In this document: positions 645 through 39,800 of the stretch, one piece after another
Numbering within the stretch: position 1 is the stretch's first letter
Layout of the letters: each line of letters begins with the position of its first letter
NCBI RefSeq assembly: GCF_018991925.1
Contig: NW_024744357.1
Span: 3,357,706 to 3,421,705, forward strand
Source of the DNA: Homarus americanus
Lineage: Eukaryota; Arthropoda; Malacostraca; Decapoda; Nephropidae
Direction of reading: 5' to 3'
Length of the DNA: 64,000 nucleotides
Translations under genes and position numbers: made by a program
The notes under the pieces: generated by a model
Database searches by the model: none
What the model was told of the DNA's origin: nothing
What the model saw: only the letters and a program-made list of their open reading frames with translations

Positions 645-3071
645 ATGAAGTTCCTCGTGATCCTGTGCTCCCTCACCGTCCTGGCATGGTAACATTTTAG
701 TACACTATAATCGTTGTTACACACGTGGTTTGTTGTATGCCTAAGATCAAACTCTTAAGTATTATCAATACACTTTCAGTGTTTGACTGACTGCGGTCAG
801 GGATGATGAGCAAGGGCATCAGTTACGTTCGTAAAGGAAATAGCTACATATATCAAATTTGATCGAACAAGAATGTTCTCATAGTACCGTAAACTTCATA
901 TTTTTTCATAGGTTAAATATGGCTGACACTCCTACAAAAAAGCCAAACTTTAGGATTTCACTTAATGTTTACTGATAAATATACTCATAATGATTTAGTT
1001 GAGAGCAGAAAGGGAATGAAACTCTCTCGCCTTTAGATCTCCAAATATATGACTCACATGCCCTTCTAACATCATGAACATGGGGCTTTTACATACTAGA
1101 GTACATTTACTGTTTTCAACAATCATTAATAAGGAACATCCTTCTAATATTGCTTACGTTTTAAATTTTAACGTAAAATTACTTATTCCAGACTATATAA
1201 AATATATCTGAACCGTTGTAGGGTTTCATTTAGCAGTTTACGAATATTCTATGAACTTAGGTTGCCAGGTAACATCTCTTTGTTCAGACAAAATTTAAGC
1301 AACTCATGTAATATCCAAAGCTTCTGGCAAACTGCCCATGTATTCACGAAAGGAATCGATCATATGGGGATATCTTAAACAAGTTAATTTTGACACACAT
1401 GAAGGTGATTAACAATAGCTCCGTATGAAGAATAATGGTAATGTTAAAATGGAAATATAATCAGCCACTCCTACTGGCAGGGCTCAAGAAGTCCCAGAGT
1501 GTGACTGTGGCGCCTTCATTACTGAGGCTGCAGAGGAGGAAGAAGTGTTCCCCATGGAGGCCTTCGATGTGGAAAACTGTGAAGATCAAAAGGATTGTCA
1601 TGATAGATGCCGCACAGAGGTGAGCCTTTACTGCCGTATACTAACAGAGAAATGTCAAGTACAGATGTCATGATTTATATATGAAAATGTACTTCACAGA
1701 ATAAATACTCAAATAATACACTTCTTTGAAATGGTGTACACAATATCTTAACATATGCCTCTGAGGTTTAGCTGGACCATACAAAACAATGTTTTCTTAT
1801 CCTCAGATGTAACATAATTTTTATTCCTTGCGTTTACAGTGGAACGAAATAACCAGCGAAGGAGACCTGAATTTCGAGCTTCCCGACGGCAAGACGGTGG
1901 GCCAGAGTATGTGTGACGACCTGGCTGAGGAGGGTAAAGACGTCGTTGGGCCAACTGAAGTAAGTCTACAATAACATAGCGAGAAATAATAGAAAGATAA
2001 AGAATGTTAAAAATGAGCGAGTGTGAGGCAAAAATAAGTGGCTACGAGAGAGAGAGAGAGAGAGAGAGAGAGAATTAATTTACTGGGCTAATAAGTATTA
2101 TCATTAGGTATTCGCCGCCAGAGTTTTGTCACACAACGTGTACAGAAGAAAGGAGCTGTAATAGTTTAGCATCTTCACCTCATTTCTCGGTGTCCCATTC
2201 AAATCAAATTAGATGTTTTAAGATTTTGATAAATACGAGTAATTTTTACCCATTTTATTATTCATATTATTTTTTTTTTACTTTGTTTACGTTTGAATAA
2301 AAGGTGATCATCATGACCCTTTACACTACTGGATGGGATTCATGAGCCTAAATCCCTAAACTTACCATCCTTAATTGACTGGTGACATTGGCTTCTACGT
2401 TCATGAAGGTGTTGTACAATAACGCCATCGTTAAAAAGAGATGAATGTTCGCGCGGTAAGTGTCCTTTTTATTTTATTTATTTTTTTACGGGGAATAAGC
2501 CCACGTAGATGCCGGAAAACCAGCTTTTTGATGTGAGACACATTGTATGACCCTCTGGATTTAATGGTAATGTTCATAAGCATATACATGTGCGTATTGT
2601 TGGCTAAATTAACGTAATTGTTAGTCACTTTTGATTATATTACATAAACGAAACACCGGTCATATTTTAAGTTTTAAGATGTATAGGCATTTCTTATGTT
2701 AAATTTTAGGAAGAATTAAGTTCCAATAACAGTTTCACGTCCCTACGTGTATTATTCCTGCTCTTATAACCAGTCGAATACTAAAAAATCTTCTTATTTA
2801 AAATGAACAATACACATGCACACACTCATGCACCCATAAACACCCTCACACACAAATGTTCATACACCCATGAAAATATATCATAGCTAATAATTTTCAT
2901 TTATCGCAACTTCATTAATGATGGGATAGTTCTAATAGTCGCATTCAATGTGCCTTCCACACACAGGTGTTCCTGTACGTGAGGCTCTGTGATGGCCCGT
3001 GGGAGGACGACGGTGAGGCCACTATGGAGATGCTGTGTTGTGACGCAGGTCAACACGAACCCTGCGAGTAA
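645..3071 (+). CDS. Secreted ten-cysteine protein, gene 1 (four coding exons)
   Basis: Exons 645-688, 1481-1619, 1840-1959 and 2967-3071 join through GT-AG introns of phase 2, 0 and 0 to give 135 residues. Exon 1 encodes a signal peptide (MKFLVILCSLTVLA), so the product should be secreted, with mature start near AQEVPEC. Exon 2 carries PECDCGAF, a very acidic run and a C-E-D-x3-C-H-x-R-C cluster (five Cys). Exon 3 has ELPDGKTVGQSMCDDL (one Cys). Exon 4 has VFLY-x2-LC-x2-PW, LCC and a final C (four Cys). Ten cysteines could form five disulfides. Two paralogues with identical exon lengths and phases lie at 25-40 kb on the other strand, which strongly supports the model. AATAAA at 3298-3303 is a likely polyadenylation signal. 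I do not recognise the family; function unknown. More acidic than its paralogues. Confidence 0.88.
2046..2073. repeat. (GA)n microsatellite in intron 3 of gene 1
   Basis: Perfect GA dinucleotide run of 28 bases, 86 bases downstream of the exon 3 donor. Genes 2 and 3 also have a dinucleotide run just after the same donor. Confidence 0.95.
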
Positions 3072-3297
3072 ATACCAGCACACAGCCATCCCTTGAGACT
3101 TTAACAGCAACATACAACGAGCCACTTACTAAGATGTTTACTATGGCAATACTTTTACTATTATGATAATGATTGTGCAACGACTTATATGTAATTGCCA
3201 ACCTTTACTACCAGATCAAAGAAATGTCATACAATCATCTACTCTGGCATATACAGTACTACACACCATCTTAGGGAATAAGCTAAATACTAACACC

Positions 3298-36907: not shown

Positions 36908-39800
36908 TTACGGACAGTGATGGTATGTGCCATTGAGGCAACACAGACTGTTTTGGCTTGTCTGGCCGTCGAACAACCAGGGAGTACTGCACAGCTGGTA
37001 GTACAGGTAGACCTGGGTGTTGGGGGGAGTTAGTTACTGACTGTTGAAAGATATGATAAATTCTTCACTGTGTAATGAGAAATATTGACAAATTAAGATA
37101 TTCTTAACATTATATAGATCTCTGTGAACTTTACATACATTTAAAGAGTTAAAATAGAGTACAAATATGTAGCAGAAAATGAAGATGTGTTCAGGCAGAA
37201 TTGGTGTTTATGTATATGGGGTTTTCAATAAATTATTAGTTCTAATTTTGAAAAGGTCATATTTTGATACTTTTGTCTTCTTCAACTACTGGGGTTATCA
37301 CAGCTGTGTTTCACCTCTAAACACTTCTCACTATGGATTCTAAATAAGACTCGTGATGAATATTTATGATAGGTTGTCTCGGTGAAAAGTGACTAAACAA
37401 ATAGGTTTTGTTCAGTGCCTTTGTTGTGTACATAAACTCTAAGCATTTAATTAAATGTAAGTGAAATATATTGGCTTCTGTGAGGTGATCCTGCAGTGGA
37501 GTCCAGTGAGGCCAGAACAGCCTGTCTACCATACTGTATGACCTCTCAAGTTCCCTCTCCAGCCCCCGGGGTGTTATGTGAGGGTCCAGGAACTGTTCTT
37601 CCCAAACGTTTACGTGTAGGGTATATGACACAATGAGGACCTGGACAAGTGCTACAGGGAACAGTCGGGATTAACCTGATCCTCCCCAGGTGAGGTGTTG
37701 TGTACAGACGCATGGAAAGAAATGATACAAGTAACGTCACTGCTGTGTTCTGGACCTATTAAAAATCATGATTAAAAAGTTAAAAGTGAGTGATATTGAC
37801 AAGTGATGTATATATATATATATATATATATATATATATATATATATATATATATATATATATATATATATATATATATATATATATATGTGTGTGTGTG
37901 TGTTATTGATGGTTTACTTTCAGACATGGATACAAATATGTAAGTGGTAGGATGATCAGTGATTATAAAGAGCGATAAGTTATCCAGCCTGAACCTCTGG
38001 AGGAAGATGTGATGTAAGTTCAGGTGTGGTGTGTGGTGAGAGCACTGTGGATGACTATATTTATCTTGGATAGAATTGATTGTAGGTGACTTTTGACATT
38101 ATATGGTTGTATGGGTGTCACGTGTGCTTGAGTATGTGTGGACATGGGTGAGGTGTCAGTGTATCCATCTGCGTGTGGTTTGTTTAACTCTAAGTTTGTC
38201 AGAATTTGATGGTACATTATAAATAGTTGGTCTGTTTCTCATTCCATTTAAATCTCGTATTCTGGATGTGGCTCTCTCTCTCTCTCTCTCTCTCTCTCTG
38301 GCTTAAATCTTACTTGGTGAGGAGGGAGGTCCTTAGTGCCTTCTTCCACCAGGTTATCACACATATGTTGGCCCGCCGTCTTGCCATCAATCAATTCATG
38401 ATCCAAGTCCCCGTCGTCGAGGATGAATGTCCACTGTCAACACATGGAGGAAATTTTTACCACTGGGGGCAAACAGACGCCCTGACATAAGTTACCTTGA
38501 TAGATACAGACGCATAAAAAAGAAAATCTCGCTGCATAATACATGAATAGTTATTATGTCATGCTTAAAGTAGTAACAAAATAATTCTGCGAAAAAAATT
38601 GGGTATTACTCTGGTGAATTTGTTTATAAAAACTAGTAAAATATCACACCTCGGCGGTACATCTGTGATGACAGTCTATGAAATCTTCACATCCATCTAC
38701 GTCGATGGGTGGAAGGTGCAGCACCTCGAACTCTAAATCTCGCAGTGTGACGAAGGCGCCGCACCAGCACTCGGGACGTTCCTGAGACCTGCCAACACAA
38801 GCCACCGTTTACCTTGTTGTGGTTACATTACTATACTCCCTCGCCAAGATTGGCAGTGTAGAAGTTCTTCGTGTTCCTGTGTGGTGTTTGCATTTACATG
38901 TCCTCCCTTTTCGTGTTCTGGGTACTGGTCATCGTTTACCTAACCGACTACACAGACGAATTACCTTGACACTTAGTCTGAATCTCAGCACACAATGGAC
39001 CACAAACAAAGAGGTGACGTATGTGACTATATGTGCAACACTTCAAGTGTCGATACTAAGCAGTTACGAATGACAGACATAACTTAGTGTTAAGTAACTC
39101 CCTGGCAGCTTAAATTTTAATACAGGACAGAAATATTTGTAGCTCAGTCTTCCCTGAAGACAGTTACAACATGGCGGCTCAACACACGTATTTGCTCTAA
39201 CTCCCAGATTGAAAAACATAGTTCCGGGCCCCAAGTCTCAGAGGTTCCCCCCAGCAGCGCTTGCCATTGATCGAATACTGTCGTAGTGTTTAGTCTTATT
39301 TATCTTTAATATTGTTTATCATCAACTAGCTTTTTAAAAACCTTAAAATACATTATCTGGCAAAAAAATCAATTTCCTAACATTAAATTTCCGTTTTTTC
39401 TGAGAGGATGTCTGGCAGCCCTGACTACACGTTCAGTATCGGGCCTAGAGCAAGTGTTATCGTTCGGTGACTAAACAGCAATCAAAACATAATTTCTATT
39501 GGACACAATTAAGATAAGTAGGATTTTCTGCGTCTGTGACTTGGGGTGCATGGGCCGGGATGAATGATTTTCAAATACAGTATATGTTTTCCTTGATTCG
39601 TTTTTCATTTTCTTACTTTCATGAGTTTCGTGAAATGGTGTTTGGAAACACTAAAACATAGATGCTCTCATTGAAATTCCTAGCCCTGGATATATGATGT
39701 GCATATAGCATTATTAAAGCAGAAAAATGTAAGTAATTGGGACAGTAAAGTATTACCAAGCGAGGGCGACGAAGCAGAGGAGGACGAGGAAGCTCTTCAT
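36908..39800 (-). CDS. Secreted ten-cysteine protein, gene 3 (four coding exons)
   Basis: Minus-strand exons 39800-39757, 38788-38650, 38433-38314 and 37012-36908 again measure 44, 139, 120 and 105 nt with phases 2, 0, 0 and give 135 residues. The signal peptide exon is identical to that of gene 2. Mature part: SQERPECWCGAFVT, LPPIDVDGCEDFIDCHHRC, ELIDGKTAGQHMCDNL, VYLYYQLC-x2-PW, SLCCLNG, HHC. All ten cysteines match genes 1 and 2, while residues between them differ widely. TATA box at 39852-39845. A (GA)n run lies 14 bases after the exon 3 donor. All three copies look intact, with consensus splice sites. Family and function not recognised. Confidence 0.9.
37809..37903. repeat. (TA)n/(TG)n microsatellite in intron 3 of gene 3
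   Basis: About 80 bases of TA followed by a short TG run. Confidence 0.95.
38272..38299. repeat. (CT)n microsatellite beside the exon 3 donor of gene 3
   Basis: Perfect CT run, read as GA in the transcript, starting about 14 bases downstream of the exon 3 splice donor. Confidence 0.95.

Follow-up and report, generated by a model that had tools for sequence, protein, structure and literature searches.

A cluster of genes for acidic, secreted-looking ten-cysteine proteins of no described family, with near-identical exons and divergent introns, in the lobster Homarus americanus

Crustins are small, secreted, cysteine-rich proteins encoded by multigene families. The amylase genes of Drosophila, of which the coding parts are alike and the flanks divergent, provide a parallel to the gene organisation described below. 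Mammalian paralogues kept alike by gene conversion, with a mosaic pattern along the gene, are described in PMC2720389. In this study, a 64,000-nucleotide (nt) stretch of Homarus americanus DNA (the window; contig NW_024744357.1, positions 3,357,706 to 3,421,705, forward strand) was analysed for three genes, here called genes 1, 2 and 3, that had been proposed from the sequence to form a family of secreted ten-cysteine proteins. The family is real and undescribed by the searches made, and it is larger, broader and more uniform around gene 1 than that sequence-only reading had seen. Its members share with the crustins that they are small, secreted-looking, cysteine-rich and multigene; in contrast to the crustins, which are cationic, they are acidic (isoelectric point (pI) 4.05-4.89) and 23 members gave no WAP match in Pfam.

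Exons were cut at the proposed positions by script and then translated. In each gene the coding exons were 44, 139, 120 and 105 nt long, the stop codon being counted in the 105, and the introns were GT-AG with phases 2, 0 and 0. Each product was 135 residues long, with a hydrophobic, signal-like start and ten cysteines, all of which lay in the mature part. The NCBI models agreed with this structure, so that the architecture claimed from the sequence held, as did the signal-like start in all three products. Gene 1 lies on the forward strand, with exon 1 at 645-688 (putative signal peptide, phase 2 intron), exon 2 at 1481-1619 (cysteines 1-5), exon 3 at 1840-1959 (cysteine 6) and exon 4 at 2967-3071 (cysteines 7-10 and the stop). 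Genes 2 and 3 lie on the reverse strand, with exons 1 to 4 at 30317-30360, 27537-27675, 27189-27308 and 25314-25418 in gene 2 and at 39757-39800, 38650-38788, 38314-38433 and 36908-37012 in gene 3; their first exons are identical in sequence. Exons 2 to 4 of all three genes were also recovered as matches in a search within the window, in which exons 2, 3 and 4 of genes 1 and 2 matched with expectation values (E) of 1e-10, 9e-13 and 3e-8, respectively. All mutual exon matches had E values of 4e-6 or better and other in-window matches to the exons were few, short and at E = 0.035 or worse. The likeness of the exons therefore exceeds chance. The earlier description of little conservation was too strong, since protein identity was 50-53% between gene 1 and the others and 67-70% between genes 2 and 3.

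The window cuts through a larger cluster, and the view of a three-member family was therefore wrong. The gene 1 protein gave at least 59 exon matches at E ≤ 0.001 in the 2.2-Gb assembly, and a spiny-lobster relative at least 87 at E ≤ 10, many of them weak; both counts are lower bounds. Exons 2, 3 and 4 occurred together at 26 loci in the lobster DNA that was fetched. Seventeen of these, the three window genes included, lie in one 200-kb cluster at approximately 3.20-3.40 Mb of the window's 6.14-Mb contig (C24545), so the genes are more extensively clustered than had been seen, and the further copies sought in flanking DNA place the window genes at the edge of this cluster. The loci outside it comprised one at 608 kb of the same contig, two each on C18512, C18547 and C1415, and one each on C2217 and C27328. 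Exon 1 was modelled at 22 of the 26 loci, one model (C18547 copy a) being judged not credible. The reading frame is broken at no fewer than three loci, in exon 3 of c3203 and c3221 and in exon 2 of the C27328 copy. The shorter exon 3 scripted for c3203 and c3221 corresponds to no real product, exon 3 being out of frame there. In five divergent lobster members, exons 2, 3 and 4 were 136-142, 120-123 and 102-108 nt long. Partial matches were found as a lone exon 4 piece at 3246924 of the window's contig, as exons 2 and 4 of an additional C18512 locus, to which the NCBI protein P0009 may correspond, and as exons 3 and 4 only on C21008.

Gene 1 is the last forward-strand copy of an array at 3249150-3360776 of the contig. 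Within it, seven units (c3264 to c3314) encode nearly one protein and follow each other at spacings of 8.1-8.3 kb in five of six cases and 9.1 kb in the other. Alignment of the six other units with c3281 covered 6396-8099 of 8100 nt, and mean identities ranged from 94.2 to 97.2%. Across 13 gene-1-like copies, the proportions of nonsynonymous (pN) and synonymous (pS) differences in the mature part were 0.020 and 0.082, respectively, and intron 2, which is 204-221 nt long, differed by a mean of 0.227; for the seven units alone, pN was 0.003, pS was 0.004 and intron 2 differed by 0.032. The signal-peptide part of the 13 copies was less alike (pS 0.16).

Intron 2 of nine of the 13 copies fell into four lineages: gene 1 with c3342 and c3349; c3331; the c3264-c3314 block with c3321; and c3251. 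Among the first three, intron 2 differed by 29-38% and fourfold degenerate sites at 0-1 of 38-42, and the tested pairs between these lineages, together with c3331-c3321, differed at 1-4 of 105-110 same-residue codons. The c3251 copy has been homogenised less: its intron 2 is 37-46% different from that of the other copies, and 4-6 of 39-41 fourfold sites differ; 18 of 105 same-residue codons differed between it and gene 1. An intron difference of 30% reflects true homology, since shuffled sequence aligned in the same way differed by a mean of 53% (20 shuffles of one pair). At 30% drift, the probability of no change at 41 fourfold sites is 4.5e-7 (binomial, with sites assumed independent). In 20-nt windows across six copies (one related comparison used seven), difference was low across exons 2-4 and the 60 nt immediately upstream of the ATG, climbing over 20-60 nt into the introns and the 3' flank.

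These patterns suggest, as the simplest reading, gene conversion limited to the exon stretches in which homology survives; an RNA template may have acted as an alternative to plain conversion. The array resembles the mammalian pairs of PMC2720389 in that paralogues are kept alike, but there the fragments identified in genomic DNA span introns as well as exons, whereas in the lobster an intron of about 220 nt between alike exons is 29-38% different in three lineages. Very strong constraint on the synonymous sites of the array, with no gene conversion, would also leave those sites nearly invariant among the three intron lineages, and selection on function could explain the likeness of the 60 nt before the ATG and of the short exon-adjacent stretches. 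Synonymous sites are free elsewhere in the same family, however, with 10 of 25 fourfold sites differing between genes 2 and 3 and 16 of 24 between genes 1 and 2, and we consider this explanation possible but unlikely. The near-fixed fourfold sites of the array were not seen in the neighbouring genes 2 and 3.

Of the 119 mature residues, 44 differed between genes 2 and 3; the part that precedes them was identical in the two. For the mature part, pN was 0.24, pS 0.36 and the ratio of nonsynonymous to synonymous substitution rates (dN/dS) 0.60; intron 2 differed at 48 of 215 positions. A 300-nt 5' block, comprising the promoter, exon 1 and the start of intron 1 (30262-30561 on the reverse strand in gene 2, partner 39702-40001 in gene 3), was 98% identical. 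Identity in the remaining alignable stretches was mostly 72-82%, but reached 93-94% over 107 and 154 nt. The block is probably the product of local conversion or recent exchange. A GT-rich minisatellite, its repeats roughly 30 nt long, occupies 27876-28721, within intron 1 of gene 2.

TATAAA motifs were located at 594-599 (forward strand, gene 1) and, on the reverse strand, at 30407-30412 (gene 2) and 39847-39852 (gene 3). The same motif stood approximately 50 nt upstream of the ATG in the 13 gene-1-like copies, genes 2 and 3, the 608-kb copy, c3203 and c3221. In the window genes, an A in a TCA context lay 30-31 nt past the start of the TATA box, and transcription of gene 1 likely starts at the A of TCA at 624, with a 5' untranslated region of about 21 nt. 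The NCBI models for the window genes were obtained by a profile search of approximately 5.8 billion proteins. LOC121877729 is gene 3, which Hamer_G016593 models with a different end, and the partial Hamer_G016591 covers exons 1-3 of gene 2. Isoform X1 of LOC121877881 ends in the 135 residues of gene 1, to which it adds 11 at the N-terminus. The start of this longer form was set aside as probably a prediction error, because its ATG at 612 precedes the expected transcription start near 624; in the region 612-644, this upstream ATG is only 18 nt past the start of the TATA box at 594.

Relatives were sought with a profile of nine lobster members, which included the frame-broken c3203 with its unreal shorter exon 3; candidates were retrieved by shared five-residue words, and 553 of them were searched with a cut-off of E ≤ 10. 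This search found 22 proteins, the weakest at E = 4.5e-17, from Homarus (8), Cherax quadricarinatus (1), Panulirus ornatus (2), Halocaridina rubra (2), Meganyctiphanes norvegica (1) and a source labelled merc (8). The latter is presumably a collection of assembled marine metatranscriptomes, in which case its rows would be expressed, spliced sequences. The family thus extends to crayfish, spiny lobster, atyid shrimp and krill. LOC121877729, LOC121871933, LOC121871945 and LOC121871973 of Homarus americanus, LOC128701251 of Cherax quadricarinatus and the Panulirus ornatus, Halocaridina rubra and Meganyctiphanes norvegica proteins belong to the same family, each at E = 4.8e-24 or lower, and the order of the cysteines is common to the lobster genes and the NCBI relatives. 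The named relatives are labelled uncharacterized, hypothetical, unnamed protein and the like, with no functional name among them. The protein of gene 1 itself (LOC121877881) was missed by this search though the first search had found it at E = 1.9e-68, and wider relatives may therefore have been missed too.

In a tree of 24 rows, five array rows formed their own Homarus-only clade (support 100/99) and the C18512 genes grouped with Cherax (100/99). The C18547 genes grouped with Panulirus and merc rows (96/95); Panulirus and an eight-row group of merc and Homarus C18547 sequences stood apart from the array. Krill (82/63) and Halocaridina (93/85) joined outside with lower support. The 608-kb copy and Halocaridina formed long branches, the placement of which is unsure.

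The cysteines, in the numbering of gene 3, are at residues 22, 24, 48, 54, 58, 86, 109, 125, 126 and 134. Residue conservation was assessed in 20 representatives, four array copies having been removed from the 24 rows. Eight cysteines (C22, C24, C48, C54, C58, C86, C109 and C126) were present in all 20, and C125 and C134 in 19. The 608-kb copy (607882-608752 of C24545) has lost C125 and C134 together, which suggests that these two residues form a disulfide pair. Fully invariant besides the cysteines were Gly, Gln, Val, Pro, Trp and Leu residues; Phe27, Leu40, Glu61, Asp70, Leu71, Tyr105 and Gly111 were present in 17-19 of the 20. This set appears to be structural rather than catalytic.

The first 15-16 residues of genes 1 to 3 are hydrophobic, and Ala, Ser or Gly precedes a conserved Gln with which the mature part, of about 119 residues, starts; secretion is predicted from this hydrophobic start. 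The mature pI was 4.05-4.89 in all 36 rows, a set that counts two models twice (as P0006 and P0007) and takes in the two broken copies. The mature part of gene 1 has 36 Asp and Glu residues among 119, plus an EEEE run; the Asp and Glu count was 33-36 in the gene-1-like copies and the broken c3221, and 17-25 in all other rows. Paired basic residues were absent from 32 of the 36 mature rows, the other four having one or two pairs.

Profile search and structure prediction, proposed along with the family, were both carried out. AlphaFold2 gave a predicted local distance difference test score (pLDDT) of 68.9 with four sequences. With 18 sequences the mean pLDDT was 89.2 and the predicted template modelling score 0.78, for a compact alpha+beta domain with predicted strands at 21-30 and 33-39, helices at 51-66 and 81-91, and five strands between 97 and 132. 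Of 23 rows, the 18-row alignment omitted P0005, P0019, P0022, P0023 and P0024, which were short, were frame-shifted or carried an odd insertion, but retained the short P0003 and P0021; P0004 belonged to neither alignment. No Pfam match was found for the three window proteins (E ≤ 1) or for nine members (E ≤ 10). For 23 members there were four one-member matches, none convincing, and searches of NCBIfam and PDB sequences gave no convincing match for family members. In agreement with the sequence-only reading, then, no described family was found in the Pfam, NCBIfam, PDB sequence and protein searches. Secreted phospholipases A2 have a conserved His-Asp in CxxHDxC; in this family the His after the fourth cysteine of genes 1 to 3 is replaced by Lys, Asn, Glu or other residues elsewhere, and the 23 members gave no phospholipase A2 match in Pfam.

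With somewhat less than even confidence, we favour the reading that the family consists of abundant, dosage-amplified, non-enzymatic extracellular proteins, probably binders. Genes 1 to 3 are members of a crustacean family whose small, acidic, secreted-looking proteins have a predicted alpha+beta domain with ten cysteines; on this reading the product would most likely be made in bulk and would act outside the cell as a non-enzymatic binding protein. Possible ligands include lipids, ions and small or microbial molecules, which the protein might meet in haemolymph, gut fluid or some other secretion. Conversion would keep exons 2-4 of the array alike without reaching the introns, and so preserve one product while raising its dosage. 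High output would be expected because of the copy number and the TATA promoters, and an absence of catalysis because no conserved catalytic-looking residue set was seen. Several points weigh against this reading. Neither copy number nor a TATA box demonstrates expression, and no TATAAA lay within the 75 nt upstream of the ATG in the C18512 genes or in C18547 copy b. The term non-enzymatic is drawn from conservation, and Glu61 (18 of 20 representatives), Asp70 (17 of 20) and Gln83 (20 of 20) could be functional. In genes 2 and 3, amino-acid sites have changed at roughly the pace of intron 2, so these genes may lie outside the constraint that acts on the gene-1-like array. The differences between genes 2 and 3 were not enriched in the predicted loops (p = 0.45), and no variable binding face therefore shows.

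The proteins could instead be anionic innate-immune effectors, dosage-amplified and secreted to haemolymph or gut, where they would act directly on microbes or as opsonins. A secreted-looking, cysteine-rich, clustered family with freely diverging genes 2 and 3 would suit such a role, but classical crustacean antimicrobial peptides are cationic whereas all 36 rows here are acidic, Pfam searches with 23 members returned neither a crustin or defensin nor any other convincing match, and the gene-1-like array is conserved rather than diversifying; we regard this role as rather doubtful. The near-constancy of the array likewise speaks against a diversifying venom-like set around gene 1, venom-like peptides being among the roles, with defence, digestion and reproduction, that the sequence-only reading had put forward. 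Families of chemical-communication proteins are often tandem arrays, and a reproductive, urinary or other communication protein, with copies giving dosage or mixtures, would be consistent with the clustering, the secreted-looking products and the Homarus-only clade of the array. The family is broad, however, its relatives ranging from krill and shrimp to crayfish and spiny lobster, and such a role is unlikely. A cuticle, egg-coat or mineral-associated matrix protein, with acidic residues binding calcium, is suggested by the Asp and Glu content and EEEE run of gene 1 and by the short first exon inside the signal peptide, a feature of many cuticle genes. Only the gene-1-like copies and the frame-broken c3221 are so acidic, however, and 23 members gave no chitin-binding (CBM_14) or cuticle match in Pfam, nor any that would indicate a peritrophin or CPAP, so that a matrix role seems quite improbable. 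Least probable, and only barely credible, is a hormone or cytokine-like signalling protein: the products are small, secreted-looking and disulfide-rich, and their conserved N-terminal Gln could become pyroglutamate, but most mature rows lack paired basic residues, 17 loci in one cluster, many of them near-identical, are unlike a hormone, and no hormone match was found in Pfam for 23 members.

The window also contains other elements. Reverse-transcriptase frames lie at 14468-22833, where all three frames scanned had Pfam RVT_1, and the same region has large inverted repeats with arms of 306-712 nt at 96-98% identity, which stem from retroelement copies in opposite orientation. An RNase H-like frame at 49087-49911 (Pfam RNase_H, E = 1e-14) is probably also from a retroelement. 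Tandem repeats with 27-nt and 44-nt units were found at 24016-24809 and 32845-33195, respectively, and a near-perfect hairpin at 8952-9315 has two arms of 177 nt that are 98% complementary and lie 10 nt apart.

For this family, which is listed only as uncharacterised and occurs in species that are important for fisheries, there are now a sequence profile, a map of the cluster and a structural model predicted with confidence. The near-fixed synonymous sites of the array, set against introns that are approximately 30% different, offer a clean natural case for determining the minimal length of conversion tracts, and the array is also suited to asking whether an RNA template takes part in conversion. 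As a tentative wider picture, which we think has less than an even chance of being right, a eucarid extracellular domain with an undescribed fold may have been amplified in the American lobster and kept constant by short-exon conversion while its introns evolved freely, so that one abundant product was preserved and the genes as a whole were not homogenised. If the protein is abundant, it may serve as a marker of a particular tissue or secretion.

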